DNA from: Deltaproteobacteria bacterium
Lineage (GTDB): Bacteria > Desulfobacterota > Syntrophia > Syntrophales > Smithellaceae
Direction: 5' to 3'
Length of the DNA stretch: 49,186 bases
Assembly (NCBI GenBank): GCA_026388535.1
Contig: JAPLJP010000167.1
Span: 1 to 49,186, forward strand
Positions within the stretch are counted from its first letter, which is position 1, and every line of letters begins with the position of its first letter. A program made the position numbers and the translations under genes. Shown here one piece after another: positions 1 to 45,024 of the stretch. Below the pieces are notes generated by a model. The model searched no databases. It saw nothing but the letters and a program-made list of their open reading frames with translations, and was not told where the DNA came from.

Positions 1-178
1 ACTGGCCGAGCGGGCCGAGATCCGCTAGACATGTCCGTTTGTGATTATGATCGTAGCCTAACCAGGCGTTGTAGCCGACGGTCACACTTGCATTTCGGCC
101 CTACGGTGTGAGAGTAACGTTGACAGGGATGAGTCGAGGGCTGGCCGGCAAGCGCGCCCGCGGCTAAACGCTACGCTA
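1..178. other. unassigned leading sequence, possible contig-end artefact
   Basis: I see no convincing gene here. The stretch is richer in G and C than the A/T-rich DNA that follows and has no reading frame resembling a known protein. It contains a short hairpin (CACAC/GTGTG, about 86-110). An 8-base string near the first bases (TGGCCGAG) recurs in inverted orientation at the very end of the window. Low-quality or chimeric assembly ends are one explanation; a fragment of unrelated DNA is another. Confidence 0.3.
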
Positions 179-511
179 TCATTCCAGAAATCCTAATTCC
201 TGCAAGATCTCTCTTGCCCTGTCGGCTTCTTCAACCTTTACAAGCAGGCGTGCGTAAGCTCCTCCTCCAACCATCAGGTTAGGGCTTTCTCCCTCAAAAT
301 AATATGTTATGCCGTCGCCATCAAGGACAGATTTTATGAAGGCTATATCGCTTTGCTGATATGTCGAATAGATTTCAACAAGATTGACATAACCGACTTC
401 AGATTCCTGCTCCGGCGGCAACTGGGAGACCAGATCAGTGCCGCAATCGACGCACTTAAAAAATCCTTCTCTATATTCGCTTTTGCATTTTGGGCAGAAC
501 ATGACCTTCAT
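179..511 (-). CDS. small zinc-ribbon protein with DUF2007-like domain
   Basis: A 110-residue protein. The N-terminus has a four-cysteine zinc ribbon (CPKC at residues 6-9, CVDC at 20-23). The rest (about 45-105) resembles the DUF2007 'putative signal-transducing protein' fold: a strand-helix pattern in which 'QSDIAFIKSVLDGDGI' is followed by an exposed loop with glycines and a closing helix 'ADRAREILQELG'. Proteins of this kind are widespread in bacteria and their function is unknown; metal binding by the cysteines is inferred. A good promoter lies upstream (TTGACA and TATCAT separated by 16 bases). The gene stands alone. I am fairly sure it is real and moderately sure of the family. Confidence 0.75.
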   Translation of the reverse strand: MKVMFCPKCKSEYREGFFKCVDCGTDLVSQLPPEQESEVGYVNLVEIYSTYQQSDIAFIKSVLDGDGITYYFEGESPNLMVGGGAYARLLVKVEEADRAREILQELGFLE

Positions 512-563
512 TCTTTCTTATCATTTCTATATTAAAATATTATTACTGTATTCCCGCATCTTG

Positions 564-591
564 ATGATAGCACAGGGAGTATAACTGTCAA
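564..591 (-). promoter_or_regulatory. sigma-70 promoter for the zinc-ribbon gene
   Basis: On the minus strand, TTGACA (586-591) and TATCAT (564-569) are separated by 16 bases and lie about 50 bases before the start codon of the zinc-ribbon gene. Confidence 0.55.
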
Positions 592-650
592 CATTAACCG
601 TATTCACAAGAACTATTGCCGCCGCTATGTCATATTTTATTTAGAAATGG

Positions 651-656
651 TATAAT
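651..656 (+). promoter_or_regulatory. putative -10 box for the PEBP-family gene
   Basis: A perfect TATAAT lies 47 bases before the upstream start codon at 703. The matching -35 region (around 628-633) is poor, so the promoter may rely on an activator or be weak. Confidence 0.35.
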
Positions 657-702
657 TCATCAAACCGGCGTTAGCTTATCAAGAAATATGGAGTGAATAT
701 TA

Positions 703-1269
703 ATGAAAAACTATTTCTTTTGTTTTTTCGCAGCCATTTGTTTTATTGTGGGCAGTGTAAATTCGCCTGCTCAGGCAAAAGGTCAAATAAATACCAAAAT
801 AAAAGGAGGCAAAACCATGGAAATAACAAGTTCGTCGTTTAACCATGAAGATATGATTCCGACTAAGTATACCTGTGACGGCCAGAACATTTCGCCGCCA
901 CTTGCGTGGAACGGCGCGCCCGAAAAAACAAAAAGCTTCGCGCTCATCTGCGATGATCCCGACGCGCCCGCTGGCACGTGGGTGCACTGGGTCGTTTTTG
1001 ATATTCCGGCAAATGTCAATTCCCTGCCGGAAAAAGTTTCCCGGCAGGAAGAAATCGCTGGCTTGGGAAAAAGCGGCAAGAACACTTCCCAGCGTTACGG
1101 CTACGACGGTCCCTGTCCGCCAAGCGGCACACACCGCTACTACTTTAAATTGTACGCTCTGGACACAATGCTGAATATGAAAGCCGGATTATCCAAAGAA
1201 GAACTGCTCAAAGTAATGAAGGGACACTTGCTGGCGGAAGCACAGTTAATGGGCAGATACAAAAGATAA
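703..1269 (+). CDS. YbhB/YbcL-family (PEBP, Raf-kinase-inhibitor-like) protein
   Basis: A 188-residue protein of the phosphatidylethanolamine-binding family. Signatures are DDPDAPAG (84-91), HW (95-96) and the GYDGPCPPSGTHRY block (133-146), which together form the conserved anion-binding pocket. The bacterial family has no settled function. From the start at 703 there is a signal peptide (about 1-26, ending in AQA), predicting export. An internal ATG at 817 carries a much stronger ribosome-binding site (AAAGGAGG at 802-809) and would give a 150-residue cytosolic protein, close to the usual family size. Two products from one gene are therefore possible. A weak hairpin follows at 1311-1328. 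Confidence 0.88.
   Translation: MKNYFFCFFAAICFIVGSVNSPAQAKGQINTKIKGGKTMEITSSSFNHEDMIPTKYTCDGQNISPPLAWNGAPEKTKSFALICDDPDAPAGTWVHWVVFDIPANVNSLPEKVSRQEEIAGLGKSGKNTSQRYGYDGPCPPSGTHRYYFKLYALDTMLNMKAGLSKEELLKVMKGHLLAEAQLMGRYKR
802..809 (+). promoter_or_regulatory. strong internal ribosome-binding site
   Basis: AAAGGAGG sits seven bases before an in-frame ATG at 817, just after the predicted signal peptide of the PEBP-family protein. It is far closer to consensus than the site before the first ATG (703), so it bears directly on the choice of start. Confidence 0.6.
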
Positions 1270-1395
1270 AGAACAATCTGCATTAAAGCGGTATTATTTG
1301 AAAGGTGTTTTTGAAATCATAATTTCAATCTTATATATTCCGCAATTACTTATTTTACTTATGTGGAACAAGTAGAACGGTCGTTATGTGATACT

Positions 1396-2283
1396 TTATG
1401 CGTTTTTATTGTTTATTGTCAGAAATAAGTTAACCCCTGTTGGCTCGGATTTAATTGAGATTGAGCCGTGATTAACACCCGCCTTGCCGGCCAATTCAGT
1501 CAACTCATTTATGTCTCTATGGAATAAAAACCATTCCACCAATTCCATACAATCTCTTGTTGGATTTGATTTCGAAAAATTACCAATAACCATTTGTCCG
1601 TTTATTTTTAACATTTTCATTAATGAGCGCAACAGAAATACAAACTTTTCATTGTCAAGATAATCAAAAAGTCCTGCAGACCAGATTAAATCGTACTTTT
1701 TTTCCGTATGGAAGCGAAATGCATTTTCACAAAAGAAAGTTATATCCGAATCATTGAGGAGTTTTTTGGAGTATTCTATGGCATTTGAATCCATATCCAG
1801 ACAATAAAAATGTATTTTGGAAAATGGATGTTCCCTTTTGTATTCATAAATATCACGACATGGGCCACAACCTATATTCAACACGGCCGGTTCCAGAACC
1901 GGAGATTTGTCAATTTCAGATAATAAGTTCTTAAAATATTCTTTCCTGTTTCGCACTGCATTTGCCGAAGTCTGCCAATGAAAGAATTTATCCCAATTTT
2001 CAAGATTTTTTTTTGGTGAAATCCATCTCATATAAATTTTATCTATTATTTCATAATCACCTCGGTAACCATGGGGTTTTTTGTAAACAAATCCTTGCAT
2101 CGTTTCTTCCGAAAAAACTTCCCCGCAGGCTGCCCACAGTTCCCTAATTTGAGCACGAGAAATCTTGCCTTCTTTACGCAAAGAGTTTAAAGAACAATAA
2201 TAATCGTTAAGCTCATCATACTCTCTTGGTTCAGGACCTCCCCGTTCCACAAGTGATACCAAGTAATTTGTTAACTTTATCAT
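1396..2283 (-). CDS. class I SAM-dependent methyltransferase
   Basis: A 295-residue protein with a Rossmann methyltransferase domain. Motif I is VLNIGCGPCRD (134-144); the acidic residue that would bind the ribose of S-adenosylmethionine lies in CLDMDS (161-166); motif II/III corresponds to YDLIWSAGLFDYL. The N-terminal block KPHGYRGDYE (69-78) resembles a motif seen in methyltransferases annotated as 3-hydroxy-palmitate methyl ester synthases (PhcB-like), so a small-molecule or fatty-acid methyl transfer is possible, but the substrate cannot be read from sequence. The start has a good AAGGAG nine bases upstream. It is followed at 27 bases' distance by no same-strand partner; the GGDEF gene lies upstream on the same strand. 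Confidence 0.8.
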   Translation of the reverse strand: MIKLTNYLVSLVERGGPEPREYDELNDYYCSLNSLRKEGKISRAQIRELWAACGEVFSEETMQGFVYKKPHGYRGDYEIIDKIYMRWISPKKNLENWDKFFHWQTSANAVRNRKEYFKNLLSEIDKSPVLEPAVLNIGCGPCRDIYEYKREHPFSKIHFYCLDMDSNAIEYSKKLLNDSDITFFCENAFRFHTEKKYDLIWSAGLFDYLDNEKFVFLLRSLMKMLKINGQMVIGNFSKSNPTRDCMELVEWFLFHRDINELTELAGKAGVNHGSISIKSEPTGVNLFLTINNKNA

Positions 2284-2309
2284 CAGTTATGACTCCTTTT
2301 CTGTAACTA

Positions 2310-3953
2310 TTATTCAAAACAAGTTCTGTCTTTTCCGTTCTTTTTACCACGATACATGAGATGGTCAACCCTACTGACAAAAGCCTTCATGTCTTCATTT
2401 TTCCTGTATTGCGCAAGTCCTATGCTCACTGTAAGATACACTATTTTCCCCGGCACCGGAGAAAAACTCTCTTTTTTTAATTCCTCTCTGATTCTTTCCG
2501 CGATAATAAGGCCTTCCTCTTTTGTTGTTATGGGAAGAATGATCGTAAATTCCTCACCACCATAACGATAGGCGGAATCAGCCTTGCGGAGACATCTTTT
2601 TATCACCTGGCCTAATCTTATTAAAACCTGATCTCCTTCAATATGGCCGTAAGTATCATTAAACACCTTGAAATCGTCGAGATCAAGAAGAAGAAGCGTC
2701 AACGGATATTCATGGCGTTCCAGTCTGTCTATTTCCATTCTGAGCTGATTGTAAAAATTTCTGGAATTATACAGTTGGGTAAGATCATCAATAATACTCA
2801 GTTCACGATACCTTTCTTCACTGTCCTTTAATTCCTTTTCCAGCTGCTTACGTTCAGTGATATCGCGGGATACAGCCTGAAAGCCTGTAATTTTTCCATC
2901 TTCAACAATTAACTGAGTGTTTTGTCCCAGCCAAATTTCACGGCCGTCTTTTTTTATTACAGGATATTCTGAATATGTATTTTTAATTCCCCTTATAAAC
3001 TGACGACCGAAAAATTTAACTGCTTTTTCACGCATATCCGGATGGATAAGTTCCAGATAATGCTTTCCTATAATTTCCTCTTCCTCATACCCCGTAATAC
3101 GTATTGTCGAAACATTGGCAAAAATAAAATATCCACTTTCGTCCGTCCGAAAGACTATATCACTCGCATTTTCCACTAATGCCCGATATCGTTCTTCACT
3201 CTCCCGCAAAGCATCCTCCGCCTGCTCATGGCCGGCTATTTCCTGTTCCAGCTCCCGATTAATAATCTGATAATCAGCCGTTCTCTTTTCTACGCGCTCT
3301 TCCAGTTCCTCATTGACCTTGATAACCTTTTCCTGTTCAATTTCCAATTGTCGTGTCAAGAAATAATCACGCCGGGCATAAAATTCGATGAAATAACAGG
3401 CCATCATTCCAAGACAATTCGCGCTGATAAGGAAAAAGCTGTTGCTGAGCAAAATTTCAAAGGGCGTGGGACGGATCCAGATGGCTGCTATTTCGTACAA
3501 TGCCACTATCACCCAACCATACAATGAGGCCCATAGGAACCGAACGCGAATGAAGGTGTAACCCAACATGAAAACAAGCATCAGGCCCGCATAATAATAA
3601 TAACTGACCGGTGCGGGAGCAATAACAATCATGCAGACAATGCCCCCACCGGCCATAATGAGGACCCCCGCCAGGAAAGGCTGCATATACCGTTCAAAGG
3701 ACTTTGAAAAAGACGCCCATAAAGTTCCAAAAAGTACGGGACATACGATAACAAAACGAATAAACCATATCGTATATTTTTGTTCCGGCATGAGTACCGC
3801 ATCCAGGATGCCGAAAGCTGCGTAAAGTATGGCTCCCAGGACTAGAAATACACGGAGCTGGGGTAGTGACACCCGAAAGTAATGGCTTAGAAATGACGCT
3901 TCGAGATTCGAAGATTCACCGGAAAATTTAAGTGTCAACGGATGCAGTTTCAT
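2310..3953 (-). CDS. membrane-bound PAS-GGDEF diguanylate cyclase
   Basis: A 547-residue signalling protein. Residues about 33-195 hold roughly six hydrophobic segments (a MASE-like integral sensor), followed by a coiled coil (200-250), a PAS domain with its PAC motif (about 252-370) and a GGDEF domain (385-547). The catalytic loop is GGEEF (465-469), a functional variant; metal ligands are in LDLDDF (423-428). The inhibitory I-site RxxD is present as RKAD (456-459), exactly five residues before GGEEF, so product inhibition by cyclic di-GMP is expected. It should make cyclic di-GMP at the inner membrane in response to a signal sensed in the membrane and PAS modules. A PilZ protein (23.2 kb) is a possible receptor in the same window. 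Confidence 0.93.
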   Translation of the reverse strand: MKLHPLTLKFSGESSNLEASFLSHYFRVSLPQLRVFLVLGAILYAAFGILDAVLMPEQKYTIWFIRFVIVCPVLFGTLWASFSKSFERYMQPFLAGVLIMAGGGIVCMIVIAPAPVSYYYYAGLMLVFMLGYTFIRVRFLWASLYGWVIVALYEIAAIWIRPTPFEILLSNSFFLISANCLGMMACYFIEFYARRDYFLTRQLEIEQEKVIKVNEELEERVEKRTADYQIINRELEQEIAGHEQAEDALRESEERYRALVENASDIVFRTDESGYFIFANVSTIRITGYEEEEIIGKHYLELIHPDMREKAVKFFGRQFIRGIKNTYSEYPVIKKDGREIWLGQNTQLIVEDGKITGFQAVSRDITERKQLEKELKDSEERYRELSIIDDLTQLYNSRNFYNQLRMEIDRLERHEYPLTLLLLDLDDFKVFNDTYGHIEGDQVLIRLGQVIKRCLRKADSAYRYGGEEFTIILPITTKEEGLIIAERIREELKKESFSPVPGKIVYLTVSIGLAQYRKNEDMKAFVSRVDHLMYRGKKNGKDRTCFE

Positions 3954-29964: not shown

Positions 29965-30852
29965 ATGGACGTTCAATTGGGCCGAATTCGTTTTATTTGC
30001 GGTGATAACGGCGGCAAGTACCCTTTTAATCATTCTGTATATCTGGAAGGTAAAAATGCTCGCATAATCATCGATCCCGCCTCCAGCCTGCAAAAACTTA
30101 CAGATTTGAAACAGAAAGATGGCGTTGATCAGGTATGGTTGTCACACTGGCATGAAGATCATATCAGTTATATAAATCTTTTTAACAATTGCCCTATCAG
30201 GATTTCTGAACGGGATTTTCCGCCGCTGACTAATCTTGAAATATTTTTGGACTGGTACGGGATTAAAGAGACGCATCTCCGTGAACTTTGGAAAAATGTA
30301 ATGCTGGAAAATTTTAACTATCGCCCGAAACAGGAAGCTTTATTTCTTCAGGATGAAAAAACCATTGACCTGGGTTCGCTTTCGGTTCAAGTAATTGCCA
30401 CCCCCGGGCACACGCCGGGACATCTTTCTTTTTTCTTTCCTGACGAAGAAATCCTTTTTATTGGAGATTATGATTTGACATCTTTCGGTCCCTGGTACGG
30501 GGATGTTTTATCCAGTATAGAGCAAACTATACAATCCCTCCACAGGCTAAAAGCTATTCCCGCGCGCATATGGGTCGCATCACACAACACCGGACTTTTT
30601 GAGAAAAATCCGGGAAAACTCTGGGGCGACTTTGAAAATGTTATCTATCAGCGCGAAGATAGGATATTGAAATTTCTGAATGAACCAAAGACTCTGGAGG
30701 AAATTGTTTCCGCCTGGCTGATCTATGGAAAACCGAGAGAACCAAAAGAATTTTTTGAATTTAATGAACGCGCGCTGGTTGGCAAACATATTGAATACTT
30801 GGAGCGGCAGGGAAAAATCACGCTGGATAAAAATAATTACGTTAAACTCTGA
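29965..30852 (+). CDS. metallo-beta-lactamase-fold hydrolase
   Basis: A 295-residue protein. Metal ligands are in HWHEDH (about 54-59), TPGHTPGH and GDYDL; the last acidic residue and a His at 'ASHNTG' complete the two-metal site. A C-terminal helical extension of about 80 residues ('LEEIVSAWLIYGK...') resembles that seen in glyoxalase-II/LACTB2-like hydrolases. It probably cleaves a thioester or phosphodiester; the substrate is unknown. AAAAGGAG lies upstream but 12 bases from the start. Confidence 0.85.
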   Translation: MDVQLGRIRFICGDNGGKYPFNHSVYLEGKNARIIIDPASSLQKLTDLKQKDGVDQVWLSHWHEDHISYINLFNNCPIRISERDFPPLTNLEIFLDWYGIKETHLRELWKNVMLENFNYRPKQEALFLQDEKTIDLGSLSVQVIATPGHTPGHLSFFFPDEEILFIGDYDLTSFGPWYGDVLSSIEQTIQSLHRLKAIPARIWVASHNTGLFEKNPGKLWGDFENVIYQREDRILKFLNEPKTLEEIVSAWLIYGKPREPKEFFEFNERALVGKHIEYLERQGKITLDKNNYVKL

Positions 30853-31524: not shown

Positions 31525-31610
31525 GCCGAAGTGGTGGAATTGGTAGACACGCTATCTTGAGGGGGTAGTGGACAAAATCCGTCCGGGTTCAAATCCCGGC
31601 TTCGGCACCA
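31525..31610 (+). tRNA. tRNA-Leu (GAG), genomic-island attachment site
   Basis: Eighty-six bases including encoded CCA. Acceptor arms GCCGAAG and CTTCGGC pair; the anticodon stem CTATC/GGTAG frames loop TTGAGGG with anticodon GAG; the T arm is CCGGG-TTCAAAT-CCCGG. It closely follows secG. Its last 54 bases recur at 37156-37209, making it a probable integration site. Confidence 0.95.
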
Positions 31611-32008
31611 TAAGAAAAATAGAGGGTTAGCTGATTGATCGGTTAACCTTCTTTCTTTTTTAAGGGTACTTGGTCAACGTCTTGGTCAACACTTTTCAAA
31701 CAGAAGCAGTATCATAAGCAAGCCCGGCACCATAAACGATTGAGTAAGCGCTTTATAGAATTCCTGTTTTGCAGGAAATTACTATAAGATCACAATCTGT
31801 AACTACTATCTTATCATTACGCTCTTTATCTGCAGGCAAATCAAAGTTCGTCAAATTGATTTAAGCCGAATTTTGACAATTTCACGGTTGACTGCTATGA
31901 ATAAAAGAAGATTCAATTTGGCAGCTATATGAAAATTATTCCATTTACTCAGATTAATTTACAGTCTCGAATAAAGTTGAAAATACCCTTAGTTGTGCAA
32001 AGGTCTAA
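31611..32008. other. 398-base non-coding left end of the island
   Basis: No gene is seen. Two 10-base direct repeats (CTTGGTCAAC at 31669-31678 and 31681-31690, 12-base period) lie about 60 bases after the tRNA, where integrase arm-type sites often occur. A short string CCCGGCACCATA at 31723-31734 resembles a tRNA 3' end fused internally, perhaps an older att remnant. Confidence 0.4.
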
Positions 32009-32989
32009 ATGAGCAATATTTTGATTACTGGTGCTGCAGGCTTTATCGGATCAAAAACAAGCCAGAAGCTTTTGGAAAATGGCGAAAATGTTGTCGGTGT
32101 TGATAATATCAACGATTACTATGACAAGCGTCTCAAACATCATCGACTGAAGACATTGAAGCAGTTCCCGAACTTTACTTTCTTCAAAGTCAATATTGAG
32201 AACAGGAAATCATTATCAGACGTTTTCCTGAACCACAAAATAGATGCAATTATCAATCTCGCTGCGCGTGCCGGTGTGCGTTACAGCATAAATAACCCGG
32301 ATGTGTATTTAACAACCAATGTACACGGCACTCTTAATCTTTTGGAATTGATGAGAAAGCATGGTATCACAAAAATGGTTCAGGCCTCTTCCTCCTCGCT
32401 TTATGCTGGTCAGGAAATGCCGTTTACAGAAATCTTGCCCGTGAATACTCCTATCTCACCGTATGCCGTCACAAAGAAAGCGGCGGAGATTCTTGCCTAT
32501 TCATATCACTACCTCTTCGGACTCGATATCTCCATACTGCGCTATTTTACTGTCTATGGGCCTGCCGGAAGACCGGACATGAGCTATTTTCGGTTCATCA
32601 AATGGATTGACGAAGGCAATGATCTGATGCTGTACGGTAATGGCGAACAGAGCCGTGATTTTACCTACATTGACGACATCGTTGACGGTACTATTAAATC
32701 CCTGAAACCAATCGGGTATGAAATAATTAATCTCGGAAACAATCATCCTCGCAACATACTTGAATTGATTTCGATTATAGAAAAGGGGTTAAATAAGAAG
32801 GCCAAAATCAAGAATATGCCCATGCAAAAGGCCGATGCAATGGCAACTTGGGCAGATATCAGCAAGGCCAAGAGGCTTCTCGGTTGGGCCCCGAAAGTAT
32901 CTCTTGAGGAAGGCATAGAGAGAACTATCAAATGGAGCACCGAAAACCGGCCATTAATAAAGCGGATTAAAATTGATCTTTCAGTGTGA
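32009..32989 (+). CDS. NAD-dependent sugar-nucleotide epimerase
   Basis: A 326-residue extended short-chain dehydrogenase. The cofactor motif GAAGFIG is at 8-14; the catalytic YxxxK is YAVTK with upstream 'ASSSSLYA'. Sequence style ('YYDKRLKHHRL', 'YFTVYGPAGRPDM') is that of UDP-glucuronate 4-epimerases. It would supply an activated sugar for the glycosyltransferases that follow. First gene in the island; no strong promoter is visible. Confidence 0.88.
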   Translation: MSNILITGAAGFIGSKTSQKLLENGENVVGVDNINDYYDKRLKHHRLKTLKQFPNFTFFKVNIENRKSLSDVFLNHKIDAIINLAARAGVRYSINNPDVYLTTNVHGTLNLLELMRKHGITKMVQASSSSLYAGQEMPFTEILPVNTPISPYAVTKKAAEILAYSYHYLFGLDISILRYFTVYGPAGRPDMSYFRFIKWIDEGNDLMLYGNGEQSRDFTYIDDIVDGTIKSLKPIGYEIINLGNNHPRNILELISIIEKGLNKKAKIKNMPMQKADAMATWADISKAKRLLGWAPKVSLEEGIERTIKWSTENRPLIKRIKIDLSV

Positions 32990-33067
32990 AGATTGAATCT
33001 AAAAACTCAGGTTTATTTGTCATTGCACCACTCTAATCTTTAAATACCTGCTTTGTGGATAATAATT

Positions 33068-34030
33068 ATGAAAATTCATTTAGTACAAACTACTGGTTGG
33101 ATACTGGAAACGATCAGCAGTGAATTAATAAAATTAAAAGCTGCTGACATAAAGCTAACCCGTTCTCGAACTACAAATTTTATGGCGGATATTAATTACT
33201 ATATTAATTGGAAACACTGGAAGTCAATAGATTCAAACTTAAGAAAATCGAATTTTGATATAGTATATTTTACTCATCTGGAAAAAGACGACTCCCTGGA
33301 AATTTTAAATGCCGCGGATTTGATTATCGCTCAGAGTAATCATGGTTTAAAGGACTTATTAGATAAAAAAATCCCGGACCATAAAATAAAAGTGATATCC
33401 GGTATGGGTCCCCGGAAAAATTTAAAATTTAAAAAAATTAAACTGGGGATTTCCGGCAGACCTTACGATTATACCAACAGAAAAAGGCAAGACTTATTAG
33501 TTAAACTCTCAAAGGATTTAAGCAACAGCATATTTCAATTTGTTTTTTCAAATAATTACTGGGATGCGATAGTAAAAGATATGCAAAGAAATAACGCAGA
33601 TTGTATTGTTGTAAGCAATAAATTTTGGGAAACAATTGATTATTGGCTTTCTGTTTCTGAGATTGAGGGAGGGCCAATGGATGTTATTAATGCTTTTTAT
33701 GCGGGAATACCGGTGATCTCCCGGTCTATTGGTTATTTCGATGATATAAAAACAAAAGAAGATTATGTTTTTAATGAATACGCTGATCTTTTATATCAAC
33801 TGAAACAAATAGAAAAAAACAAAATCAATAAATTGTCTAAAATATCAGGCTTTACATGGAATGATTTCAGAGATTGGCATGCTGGTTTATTTAAAGAAAT
33901 AAATAAGTACGGTTATAAAGGCCCCAGAAAACAGACAACTCAAACGAAGGTAGCGGAGTTAACAAGCAAGCTGGCGGCCGTGATTTCAGATAAATATCAG
34001 AAAAAGTTGAAACGGCAGCCACCCATATGA
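33068..34030 (+). CDS. GT-B-like glycosyltransferase (divergent)
   Basis: A 320-residue, A/T-rich gene. The C-terminal block 'VSEIEGGPMDVINAFYAGIPVISRSIGYFDD' is the donor-binding E-x7-E-like region of GT4 enzymes; the N-terminal half shows only weak alternation of strands and helices. I take it as a short or diverged glycosyltransferase. Start chosen at ATG 33068 rather than TTG 33053, as both lack a clear ribosome-binding site and ATG begins the typical strand 'MKIHLVQT'. It overlaps the next gene by four bases (ATGA), implying coupled translation. Confidence 0.65.
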   Translation: MKIHLVQTTGWILETISSELIKLKAADIKLTRSRTTNFMADINYYINWKHWKSIDSNLRKSNFDIVYFTHLEKDDSLEILNAADLIIAQSNHGLKDLLDKKIPDHKIKVISGMGPRKNLKFKKIKLGISGRPYDYTNRKRQDLLVKLSKDLSNSIFQFVFSNNYWDAIVKDMQRNNADCIVVSNKFWETIDYWLSVSEIEGGPMDVINAFYAGIPVISRSIGYFDDIKTKEDYVFNEYADLLYQLKQIEKNKINKLSKISGFTWNDFRDWHAGLFKEINKYGYKGPRKQTTQTKVAELTSKLAAVISDKYQKKLKRQPPI

Positions 34031-35325
34031 AAGTTTTATACGATATAGCGGTACTGGGCAAAGGACACTATGATCTTCATTACAAAACCGGAATTCACAG
34101 AGTTGTTGAAAATATTGCCTTGGCACTGGCGGCCTCCGGAGATTGTGACCTGCACTTTTGCGCAAGTGTTTCCCTGGAAAATGTGAATCAAGCCATAGAC
34201 TATTTACAGGCAAATCACCCATTGGAACACATCCCCCTTATTTCCCTGGGAATTGAAAAGTCTTTTTATGAAAAACTCACGGGCAAGATTAATAGACTTC
34301 TCGAACAACCCCAGCGCGCATTGGAATTGAGCACTCTCCGAAACGCATTCCAGGCACTCCGGGAATCTCTGCATTACGAACGTGCGCGTGCCGGTAAAAG
34401 CTTTCCAATATTGAGTTCGCAAGCTTTATCGACAATAGATTTATACCATTCCCCCTTCCATCCTTTTCCCGGGCGCTTAAAGGCATTAAAGTCCATCAAA
34501 AAAATTGTAACCATTCATGATTTAATACCCATTATTCATCCAAAGTTTTTCGAATTTAATCGTCCTTCTTCAGTTGAGAAAGTGATAAATAACGCGGAAC
34601 CTGACGACTGTTTTATCTGTGTATCTAATTCAACAAAAAATGATTTATGCAATTATCGAAGCAGTATTGACTCTTCCCATGTCTTTGTGACCCACCTGGC
34701 CGCATCGGAATATTTCTATCCCTGTAATGATGAAGAAGAAATTTATTCCATAAAGAAAAAATTCAATATACCCGATGTTCCATACATTCTGAGTTTAAAT
34801 ACTTTAGAGCCACGGAAAAATATCGCTCACACGATTCGCTGCTTTGCAAAGCTGGTTGAACAGGAGAATATCAAAGATCTGTGTCTTGTTATTACCGGCC
34901 GCAAGGGCTGGGGTTACGACAATATTTTTGATGAACTATCGAACGCCTCTTCTCTGAAAGAACGCATTATATATACGGGATATGCAGCTAATGAAAATTT
35001 AGCCGCTTTATACAGCGGCGCGATCGCCTTTGCTTTTCCATCATTTTATGAGGGGTTTGGACTTCCCCCTTTGGAAGCGATGCAGTGCGGCGTTCCGGTC
35101 ATTACTTCCAACACATCTTCTCTGCCGGAAGTCGTCGGCGACGCGGGAATCATAATTTCCCCTGAAGATGGCGACGCCCTGTGTCAAAGTATGCTCGAAA
35201 TTTACCGTAACTCATCTCTGCGAAAATCCCTTTCCGCGAAATCAATCGAGCAGGCAAAAAAATTCAGTTGGCAAAAGTGCGCCGGGGAAACGATTCAAGC
35301 GTATAAGACCGCTTTAAGCGTTTAA
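34027..35325 (+). CDS. family 4 glycosyltransferase
   Basis: A 432-residue GT-B enzyme. The N-terminus begins '[11 protein letters not shown]'; '[11 protein letters not shown]' and '[10 protein letters not shown]' are typical of the mannosyl/galactosyltransferase branch; the donor domain has '[11 protein letters not shown]', the 'GRKGWGYDN' loop and the acidic motif '[16 protein letters not shown]' (E-x7-E). It should transfer a hexose from a nucleotide donor to a lipid- or polymer-linked acceptor in the cytoplasm. Coupled by overlap to the preceding gene. Confidence 0.9.
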
Positions 35326-35374
35326 GCGGAGCCGCCTCTTCTCCGAAACCATTGTTTTGTTTTTATGGAAATGC

Positions 35375-36943
35375 TCACTGTCTTCCTGCGGAACATTGAG
35401 CGGCATAAGCCCTGGTTAGACGATCTGTCAAATTATGTACTGTAAATCCGGAAAGAATCCGCTCCCGTCCTGCATTGCCCATCCGCTTCCGCAAAACAGG
35501 ATCTTTTAACAGCCGCTCCAGACTTCGCGCCATTCCTGTAATATCCCCCACATCATGAAGATAACCGTGTACACCGTCCTCAACAAGATCTGGCACACCG
35601 CCTGCACGAGTTGCCACAACGGGCAGTCCCGCCAGCATTGCTTCCATTACAACATTAGGCATGCCTTCGTGGGATGATGTCAGAAGAAACACCTCCGAAC
35701 ATAGCAAATAATCAAAAACATTTCTCCGCCGCCCTAATAAAATAATTGCCTTATCCGTCCAGTTATTACCCGAACTGCCGTCTAAACCTGCCGCAGTTAT
35801 GCGCGTTTGCAGGTCATCTTTTAGAGGCCCGTCGCCGATATGAACAAGAGACGCCAGGGGGATTTTTTCCCGCAAGGCAAGAAGAATATCCGGAAGATCA
35901 AGATGCCGCTTCTGGGGCACCAGCCGCCCGACAGACACCACCAGAGGCGCCCCGGGAGCAACTCCAATCGTCTCCCGCAAAGCCGCGCCGCTTTTTTCAT
36001 TCGATGAATAAAACCACACCGGATCAACGCCATTAGGCATAACTTCAACTTTCTCCGAAGGTAATCCCAGCCATTTTGTGTAGTCTAATGCTCCGGCAAA
36101 AGAATTACACTCTACTTTGATATGAGAAAATTGGAGTAAAAACTTATAAAGATGGGGCATCCAATCTGCGAAAAAACCGAAATTTGTCGGTTTGGCATTG
36201 CGCCACGAAAGACGTATCATAGGAATTCCGCTTAAAAGCGCCGCGAAACCGCCGTAGCAACAACACCCGTCTAAATAACAATGCACAACATCAACCGGTC
36301 GGCGCAGCATTTCTGCCGTTAAAGCAATTGCGTCAATGCGTATTTCCGCCGGTAAATGTTTGATTAGCGAAATATCCACACCCTGCTGTTTCATGAATTT
36401 AATATCAGAAAAGCTTGGCATCTTAGGTACGGAAATGTCAACACCATGCGCCCTAAGATAAGGGAGGTAATGACCGCTTTCCCCATCGAGACGTAAAACG
36501 CGAACCCGCACATCATATCCGAGTTTCTTAAGCGCGCACGCTAAACCTGCCACTTGCCGTTCTGCTCCCCCCGCGGACATATTGTAAGTGACAAGGCATA
36601 CTGAAGGCTTTCCTTGCCGGCCGGAAGATGAAACCGGTTTCAAAGGAAGAAAAAGATTCTTATCGGGCCATTGGGTATCAAATGGAAGATATATGTCAAT
36701 TCCGCAGGAAATGAACAATTTCATCTTGCACATGTATAGCCGCAAACGAAACACAACACTATTTTGGATAAAGGATTTGAGCCCATTCCTGCGAATACTG
36801 CGAACAGCCCGTATCCCCAATTCTAATCCCGGAATCCAATTTAACATTCCTGGTTTTTGCAGTCCGCTAAATATTTTTAATCGTTCAAAAGAATTCATTA
36901 AGTTGCCATTAAACTTCTCATAGAATCTTTTTTGATAAAACAT
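35375..36943 (-). CDS. family 4 glycosyltransferase with N-terminal extension
   Basis: A 522-residue protein. About 110 residues with no clear domain precede a GT4 enzyme that starts at 'PSVCLVTYNMSAGGAERQ' and has the donor motif 'SSHEGMPNVVMEAMLAG'. The extension includes basic stretches and may attach to the membrane or a partner. It faces the other island genes, converging with the 34 kb glycosyltransferase over 49 bases. Substrate is unknown; the island as a whole probably decorates a surface polysaccharide. Confidence 0.85.
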   Translation of the reverse strand: MFYQKRFYEKFNGNLMNSFERLKIFSGLQKPGMLNWIPGLELGIRAVRSIRRNGLKSFIQNSVVFRLRLYMCKMKLFISCGIDIYLPFDTQWPDKNLFLPLKPVSSSGRQGKPSVCLVTYNMSAGGAERQVAGLACALKKLGYDVRVRVLRLDGESGHYLPYLRAHGVDISVPKMPSFSDIKFMKQQGVDISLIKHLPAEIRIDAIALTAEMLRRPVDVVHCYLDGCCCYGGFAALLSGIPMIRLSWRNAKPTNFGFFADWMPHLYKFLLQFSHIKVECNSFAGALDYTKWLGLPSEKVEVMPNGVDPVWFYSSNEKSGAALRETIGVAPGAPLVVSVGRLVPQKRHLDLPDILLALREKIPLASLVHIGDGPLKDDLQTRITAAGLDGSSGNNWTDKAIILLGRRRNVFDYLLCSEVFLLTSSHEGMPNVVMEAMLAGLPVVATRAGGVPDLVEDGVHGYLHDVGDITGMARSLERLLKDPVLRKRMGNAGRERILSGFTVHNLTDRLTRAYAAQCSAGRQ

Positions 36944-37155
36944 TGCTTTCTTTCAGGAAAAGATAGGGAAATTATGTTTCTATGTCAATTATATTTTAAG
37001 AAATAATTACATATGAAATATTGTCTGAGCGGGAAAAATGGAAAAGCTCTCTTTCTGCGAGAAAGAAACATTACGGCTATAATACTATTTAAAGTGGCTT
37101 TAAAAATTACCGGAACATTTTGGGGAAAGCATCCCTGTATTTCCCTTCATGTATA

Positions 37156-37209
37156 TTGAAGGTGTACTGGACAAAATCCATCCGGGTTCAAATCCCGGCT
37201 TCGGCACCA
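37156..37209 (+). repeat. duplicated 3' part of tRNA-Leu (attachment-site copy)
   Basis: Fifty-four bases match 31557-31610 of the tRNA gene at all but four positions; the last 29, covering the T arm, acceptor strand and CCA, are identical, and the similarity continues for several A-rich bases. It lacks the 5' half, so it is not a functional tRNA. The mismatches lie in the anticodon and variable region, consistent with some drift since integration. Confidence 0.88.
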
Positions 37210-43995: not shown

Positions 43996-45024
43996 CTAAT
44001 ATGCCTTCCTTTTCAAAAGAAAAATAAAATAAGGCGCGCCGCAAAGCGCTGTGATAACTCCGACTGGCAATTCAGCCGGCGCGAAAACAACTCTGGCTAT
44101 GGTATCGGCGACAATTAAAAAAGACGCGCCGAACAAAGCAGAAACAGGCAAAAGTAAACGGTGGTCGGAACCGAAAATCAGTCGCATTAGATGCGGCACC
44201 ATAATACCCACAAAGCCGATTATGCCGGCCAGAGACACCGCCACGGAAATAATCAGCGAGGTTACAACCAAAAGCCATTGCTTCGTTCTCTCCACATTGA
44301 CACCCAGATGCTCAGCTGTATCTTCGCCCTGCACAATCAGGTTAAGTTTTCGCGACTGCGCGTAAAGCAACACAAAACCGACAATAAGGCATAAAGCCGC
44401 CACGCAAATTTCTTTGAATGACGCGCGCGAAAGATCGCCCATCAGCCAGAACGTAATGCTGTGCAACTCCATGCTGTTGACAATAGAGAGAAAAAAGAGA
44501 ATGGCCGCGGAGAAAAAAGCGTTCACGACAACACCGGAAAGCAAAAGCGAATTATCCAGAAGAGGCCCTCTGGTGCCTCCGGCCATAACAAACACTAAAA
44601 ATACTGTGGCCAGCGCTCCCCCAAAAGCCAACAGAGGCACTCCTAAATAAAAAGAGCTCGCACCGATAAGAATTCCTATAATCGCTCCCAGCGCTGAACC
44701 TCCCGATATTCCCAGAATATAGGGATCAGCCAGAGGATTGCGCAGAATAGCCTGAAAGATAACTCCACCCAGAGAAAGCGCCGCGCCGACGATCCCCGCG
44801 AAAATAATCCGCGGCAGACGCACGGAAAATAAAATTAATTCTTCTTCGGAAGACACAGACAAATTTCCGGTAAGAGCGCTGACAAGGGAATTAAAAACAT
44901 GTCCCAATTCTATATGGACACTGCCCACTGAAAGAGAAACAAGGCAAAGCGCCAAAAATATTAAAATCATCAGGGCGCTGATTTGCAGCACCCGCGCTGA
45001 AGTTACACGGCGGTAAATGGGCAT
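43996..45024 (-). CDS. FecCD-family ABC permease (BtuC-like)
   Basis: A 342-residue permease with about ten membrane segments. 'RLPRIIFAGIVGAALSLGGVIFQAILRNPLADPYILGISGGSALGA' region (cited by parts: RLPRI, NPLADP, GISGG) is the family hallmark, and 'GFVGIMVPHLMRL' contacts the ATPase. I chose ATG 45024, which has AGGAGG at the right distance. It would import a corrinoid or siderophore. A stem-loop repeat lies right upstream (45036-45092) and might form part of its leader. Confidence 0.92.
   Translation of the reverse strand: MPIYRRVTSARVLQISALMILIFLALCLVSLSVGSVHIELGHVFNSLVSALTGNLSVSSEEELILFSVRLPRIIFAGIVGAALSLGGVIFQAILRNPLADPYILGISGGSALGAIIGILIGASSFYLGVPLLAFGGALATVFLVFVMAGGTRGPLLDNSLLLSGVVVNAFFSAAILFFLSIVNSMELHSITFWLMGDLSRASFKEICVAALCLIVGFVLLYAQSRKLNLIVQGEDTAEHLGVNVERTKQWLLVVTSLIISVAVSLAGIIGFVGIMVPHLMRLIFGSDHRLLLPVSALFGASFLIVADTIARVVFAPAELPVGVITALCGAPYFIFLLKRKAY

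Follow-up and report, generated by a model that had tools for sequence, protein, structure and literature searches.

The window, the 49,186-nucleotide stretch of deltaproteobacterial DNA analysed here, contains what we interpret, with a probability of about 0.87, as a decayed integrative island at a tRNA-Leu(GAG) gene. The island has the anatomy of a cis-mobilizable element (CIME), carries one epimerase and three glycosyltransferase genes, and is probably immobile. It is framed by two copies of the tRNA 3' end and retains a stub of an integrase gene; some related genomes have the same site empty, and in another (G014, Syntrophaceae MAG fen_1165) an intact sister element occupies the same tRNA. 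It looks like an ordinary fossil island of a known kind.

According to the proposed sequence of events, an element with a tRNA-Leu-specific tyrosine integrase would have inserted into the 3' end of the tRNA-Leu(GAG) gene beside secG. The left copy would be the tRNA end as restored by its attP, and the right copy the original end, pushed 5.6 kb away, while the left end of the element would have brought in a terminator-like hairpin that immediately follows the tRNA and overlaps the integrase stop codon. Loss of the integrase body, and probably of most of the element, through a deletion would have left or exposed a cargo of mosaic origin, the epimerase and three glycosyltransferases.

Duplication of the tRNA end

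ARAGORN identified one tRNA in the window, the tRNA-Leu(GAG) at 31525–31610 on the plus strand (Rfam tRNA model, 51.3 bits), whose 3' part from about position 31557 is the attL copy. The attR copy, which is the original 3' end of the tRNA-Leu moved away from its gene, occupies 37156–37209 on the plus strand, 5,599 bases downstream of the attL copy; past this copy, the sequence matches G008 and G001 at their empty sites. The initial annotation had described a 54-base tRNA end repeated 5.6 kb downstream with four mismatches and the final 29 bases identical, and direct comparison of 31557–31610 with 37156–37209 gave exactly this; the extended repeat measures 67 nt at 91% identity. Such a direct repeat at the far border is a mark of tRNA-integrated genomic islands. 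The copy is not scattered over unrelated sites: across the 193 contigs of the same genome, the sole other strong match to the tRNA and its flank is a tRNA-Leu-like place on contig 65 (84%).

A probable remnant of the right end, ATCCCTGTATTTCCC, is found at 37131–37145 (plus strand), in register with the displaced copy and matching G014 at 14 of 15 positions. The loci examined contain the 10-base core of this motif at two other, unrelated places, and in the comparison of 36944–37152 with G014 (score 27.0, shuffles 27.8) the 15-nt motif alone matches. At 31725–31735, CGGCACCATAA is identical to the tRNA end plus the next bases and is maybe a third, worn att copy; we judge this candidate weak because 4 of 300 shuffles reached its local score and the word recurs a third time at 44194. 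A 22-nt inverted match (91%) between 30119–30140 and 36012–36033 lies within two coding regions and is probably due to chance.

Empty and occupied sites in relatives

We searched 60 genomes, that of the window included, with the tRNA region and read the loci around secG. secG adjoins tRNA-Leu(GAG) in 14 other genomes. In 6 of these (G001, G007, G008, G009, G012 and G021), no more than 300 bases separate the tRNA from a downstream AhpD-like gene or RNase D; in G007, the AhpD-like gene is interrupted by an unrelated insert. When the two flanks of the island in the window were joined, secG, tRNA and AhpD-like gene aligned across the junction in G008 and G001, both of the same genus, and the alignment with G007 was broken by its insert. 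The empty arrangement that the initial annotation proposed to look for, another mark of tRNA-integrated islands, is thus present in G008 and G001. Three sites are occupied, by 36.6 kb (G014), 12 kb (G003) and 3.4 kb (G027), with no displaced tRNA copy found on searching the latter two. The remaining five (G010, G015, G016, G031 and G037) are unclear or different. No sugar gene was seen at this place in any of the 14 genomes, with or without a second copy, although five are unclear and some include little downstream DNA.

In G014, of the same genus, 36.6 kb separate the same tRNA from a 55-nt displaced copy. The adjoining integrase is intact, 390 amino acids long and of the tyrosine type; it matches phage integrase families, is convergent with the tRNA and ends 32 bases from it. 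Together with the empty site in relatives, this occupied site upholds the earlier claim of integration at the tRNA. The G014 island resembles that of the window in its site, its homologous integrase tail and hairpin, and its displaced copy. It differs in its intact integrase and in its cargo, which comprises type ISP restriction-modification, an HKD and Snf2 helicase, CHAT, caspase and patatin. A tree of the flanks places the window genome next to G010 and G014, weakly (support 0.32); one shared integration event is possible.

Further observations concern other occupants of the site. The G014 island (G014:C117 1567–38203; L029, L030), with its second phage-integrase-family gene, looks defence-like. 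In G003 (G003:C9 2250–14269; L038), the 12 kb between tRNA-Leu(GAG) and RNase D hold genes that by eye belong to cysteine, sulfur and NAD metabolism. In G015 and G016 (L039, L040), a hairpin of the element's type directly follows tRNA-Leu(GAG) without an integrase and precedes a FAD-oxidase-like gene (named by eye); these loci are possibly a bare scar. The tRNA-Leu hotspot is thereby visible in Syntrophaceae-like bacteria in stages: empty, a full 36.6-kb island, a decayed island and, apparently, a hairpin-only scar.

An integrase stub and a hairpin at the left end

The left end of the element (31611–31703), comprising the 93 bases after the tRNA, is 84% identical to the end of the G014 integrase gene (G014:C117:38110–38202 over query positions 1–93), with a local alignment score of 124 against 29 ± 4.4 for shuffles; identity to G010 and G037 is 88% and 86%, respectively. 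Within it, on the minus strand at 31643–31699, lie the last 18 codons and the stop codon (31645–31643) of an integrase gene. The translation, LKSVDQDVDQVPLKKKEG, shares 14 of 18 residues with G014 (tblastn, 77.8% over 18 residues, E 0.003). The integrase expected beside the tRNA of such an island is therefore represented by this remnant alone. Beyond 31705, further integrase DNA is not detectable in the window (score 37; shuffle mean 28.7, maximum 44), and 31611–37151 holds no intact integrase ORF. The initial annotation, which saw no recombinase inside the island, was right as to an intact gene and overlooked the C-terminal stub. From the 84% identity and the 18 codons with their stop, it follows that a recombinase was once present and then lost. 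An integrase tail beside the tRNA offers a means to separate islands with 'no integrase' from true satellites.

The terminator-like hairpin (31621–31652, plus strand) has 14 pairs and a loop of 4, followed by TTCTTTTTTA, and its 3' arm contains the integrase stop codon. It is supported by its fold (−20.4 kcal/mol for 31612–31666, z −4.45) and by covariation in 28 relatives. Across 28 of 30 loci (L125 and L140 fall outside the alignment), 98.2% of cells are paired, with changes on both sides in four of the pairs. None of 500 shuffles reached any of five measures, and slid versions pair at 35 to 61%; we take the shuffle test as support, not proof, because relatedness inflates such shuffles. Among 10 control stretches, 8 have no comparable hairpin, including those that follow the displaced copy in the window (−3.7) and in G014 (−5.1), and 2 have hairpins of their own with another sequence (G021 contig 50, −20.6; G003, −9.5). 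The lack of a comparable hairpin after the displaced copies indicates that, in both the window and G014, the element brought the hairpin with it.

The hairpin may act as the terminator of the tRNA. If it really does, its retention may explain why the short integrase tail persists, and integrase tails would have a simple reason for outliving their elements. A broader reading, to which we give slightly less than even odds, is that the left end of this integrase family's elements is a portable tRNA 3' cassette, supplying the 3' half of tRNA-Leu together with a new intrinsic terminator in which the integrase stop codon is embedded. The host would need this cassette once the element is integrated, so that decay would repeatedly leave little more of the element than the hairpin and a short stretch of integrase tail. 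If so, the elements lost could be read from the tRNA-Leu genes throughout the order.

The sugar-gene cargo

Four ORFs without internal stops lie between the two copies, and with Pfam they bear out the initial annotation of an epimerase and three glycosyltransferases. The first (32009–32989, plus strand) encodes an NAD-dependent nucleotide-sugar epimerase/dehydratase of 326 amino acids (Pfam GDP_Man_Dehyd and Epimerase; PHROG nucleotide-sugar epimerase), whose PDB sequence matches include dTDP-glucose 4,6-dehydratase, an 'epimerase domain' protein and UDP-glucose 4-epimerases. It is followed by a putative glycosyltransferase of 320 amino acids (GT1; 33068–34030, plus strand; Pfam Glycos_transf_1 at 26.6 bits against a cut-off of 26.4), which overlaps by four bases the second, of 432 amino acids (GT2; 34027–35325, plus strand; Glycos_transf_1, 112 bits). 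The third, of 522 amino acids (GT3; 35375–36943), is on the minus strand (Glycos_transf_1 and Glyco_transf_4). Neither the epimerase nor the glycosyltransferases reached an NCBIfam cut-off among the best 25 matches. The cargo presumably serves surface polysaccharide work. Its GC content is a mosaic (0.42, 0.33, 0.43 and 0.47 in gene order, against 0.43 for the window), so the description of some genes as very A/T rich suits GT1 and not the other three.

GT1 has no relative in 98 other genomes (E ≤ 1e-10) or in 154 others of the class (E ≤ 1e-8; the sets overlap), and no match in phage records. With GT1 confined to its own genome (1 of 99 and 1 of 155), the cargo is, on this distribution, foreign. 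GT3 has no relative at E ≤ 1e-60 in 59 other genomes. GT2 is 45% identical to a protein of G003, 44% to one of G011 and 48% to a paralogue in its own genome; for the epimerase, G003 has an 87% relative, located elsewhere in that genome (contig 20), and G046 a 56% relative. None of these sugar genes was found in sister loci (25, 20 or 20 loci, in overlapping sets); one set of 20 consists of the loci around secG, where a screen for the epimerase and glycosyltransferases at E ≤ 1e-6 gave no match.

Because no sister element was seen with these sugar genes, we leave their travel with the integrase as one possibility; later recombination could have brought them instead. That ordinary recombination placed them in an already decayed scar, with no travel alongside the integrase, seems to us rather unlikely, if a serious contender. 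The mosaic GC content, the epimerase relative elsewhere in G003 and the different cargo of sister elements would all suit it, but the cargo sits exactly between the att copies and GT1 and GT3 lack relatives in the genomes searched, observations that arrival on an element would explain equally well.

Mobility and comparison with known elements

Of the two terms used earlier, satellite-like or degraded, the second is supported, as an integrase stub remains; a satellite would need an integrase acting in trans, and a search of the same genome for a family integrase at E ≤ 1e-30 found none. For the same reason, the island is probably immobile. A satellite or CIME that still moves, with the integrase of another element recombining the two att copies in trans, is very unlikely, even though both copies remain recognizable with their last 29 bases identical and integrase-less islands of such a kind have been described (PMC3146451, PMC5704250). 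Besides the missing family integrase, the right copy has drifted (4 of 54), and a partly deleted integrase gene favours decay over an integrase-free design. A reading of the second copy as a chance match, or as a fragment of some unrelated tRNA gene, has nothing but the copy's partial length in its favour and is refuted by an ungapped scan of both window strands with the 59-nt tRNA end (53/59 at the copy, 31/59 at the next best place), which excludes a chance match, and by the empty-site match beyond the copy.

A phage satellite or prophage was also considered and rejected: the four cargo genes are all sugar enzymes, with no packaging or structural genes and no intact integrase, and their matches in the phage library are to epimerase and glycosyltransferase families only.

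The decayed island in the window agrees with the outline of CIMEs given in PMC5704250, in that attL and attR are retained, integration genes are lost and cargo lies between. As described there, CIMEs derive from an integrative and conjugative or mobilizable element (ICE or IME) with transfer genes, whereas the island in the window resembles them in anatomy. Among nine proteins of the G014 island scanned with Pfam, no conjugation family was found; the matches were to a helicase, a type ISP methylase, a second phage-integrase-family protein, HTH, DUF4062, patatin, caspase and CHAT/TPR, with one protein unmatched. Among the ssrA genomic islands of Dehalococcoides, 15 without an integration module were suggested to be CIMEs (PMC3146451). 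Like the island in the window, the ssrA islands, as outlined in that report, are bounded by an RNA gene on one side and by a directly repeated copy of that gene's 3' end on the other, with the 3' end of an integrase gene beside attL. They involve a serine recombinase, the tmRNA gene, a 20-bp repeat and dehalogenase cargo (PMC3146451), whereas the island in the window has a tyrosine integrase, tRNA-Leu, a repeat of about 54 bp and sugar genes. NBU1, for which PMC5704250 gives the tRNA-Leu 3' end as the integration site, shares a tyrosine recombinase and this target with the window's element, by description; unlike the island in the window, it is a mobilizable element of Bacteroides with its own integrase. 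A literature search, mostly without full texts, found no description of the window's island.

Recurrent decay at the same left end

A family integrase was found at E ≤ 1e-30 in 18 of 99 genomes searched, many only about 31% identical. Of 22 integrase loci, 19 contain a tRNA (8 Leu, 5 SeC and 6 others). In named records, the integrase or its tail lies beside tRNA-Leu in 12 of 20 loci (6 GAG, 5 CAG and 1 CAA) and beside Phe, His or Arg in 3, with 5 lacking an adjacent tRNA; apart from one record labelled archaeon, the loci come from MAGs of Syntrophaceae and other deltaproteobacteria. Five pattern matches in IMG/VR included none encoding a relative of the G014 integrase. We judged the plasmid matches generic because all fall below 60% identity, with about 25% in the best rows.

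The left-end DNA has 43 listed occurrences, spread over 35 of 149 genomes. Thirty of these were taken as loci, and tRNA-Leu adjoins 25 of the 30 (14 GAG, 11 CAG). By tblastn (E ≤ 0.01, eight references), the integrase is long in 9 loci, broken in 1 (G037), reduced to a tail some 18 to 102 codons long in 7, the window included, and not detected in 13. One long integrase is at tRNA-SeC, and some are cut by contig ends; in the last class, G116 is cut off by a contig edge, and for at least two loci (G027, G030) inspection by eye suggests worn integrase ends. Island decay is thus recurrent among loci with this left end.

One result speaks against so simple a picture: among 25 longer loci, 20 of them with an annotated tRNA-Leu, a displaced copy was found in G074 only, within the DNA examined, many contigs ending early. 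This copy (49 nt, 100%) lies 3.1 kb from the tRNA, without an integrase. The locus (L152, G074:C224 from 8500; 93–3281) is a second integrase-less insert at tRNA-Leu(GAG), its perfect copy adjoining RNase D, and its ORFs are by eye ATPase-like and beta-propeller-like. A hairpin follows both tRNA copies, and the second one, of the same type and after the displaced copy, suggests repeated integration.
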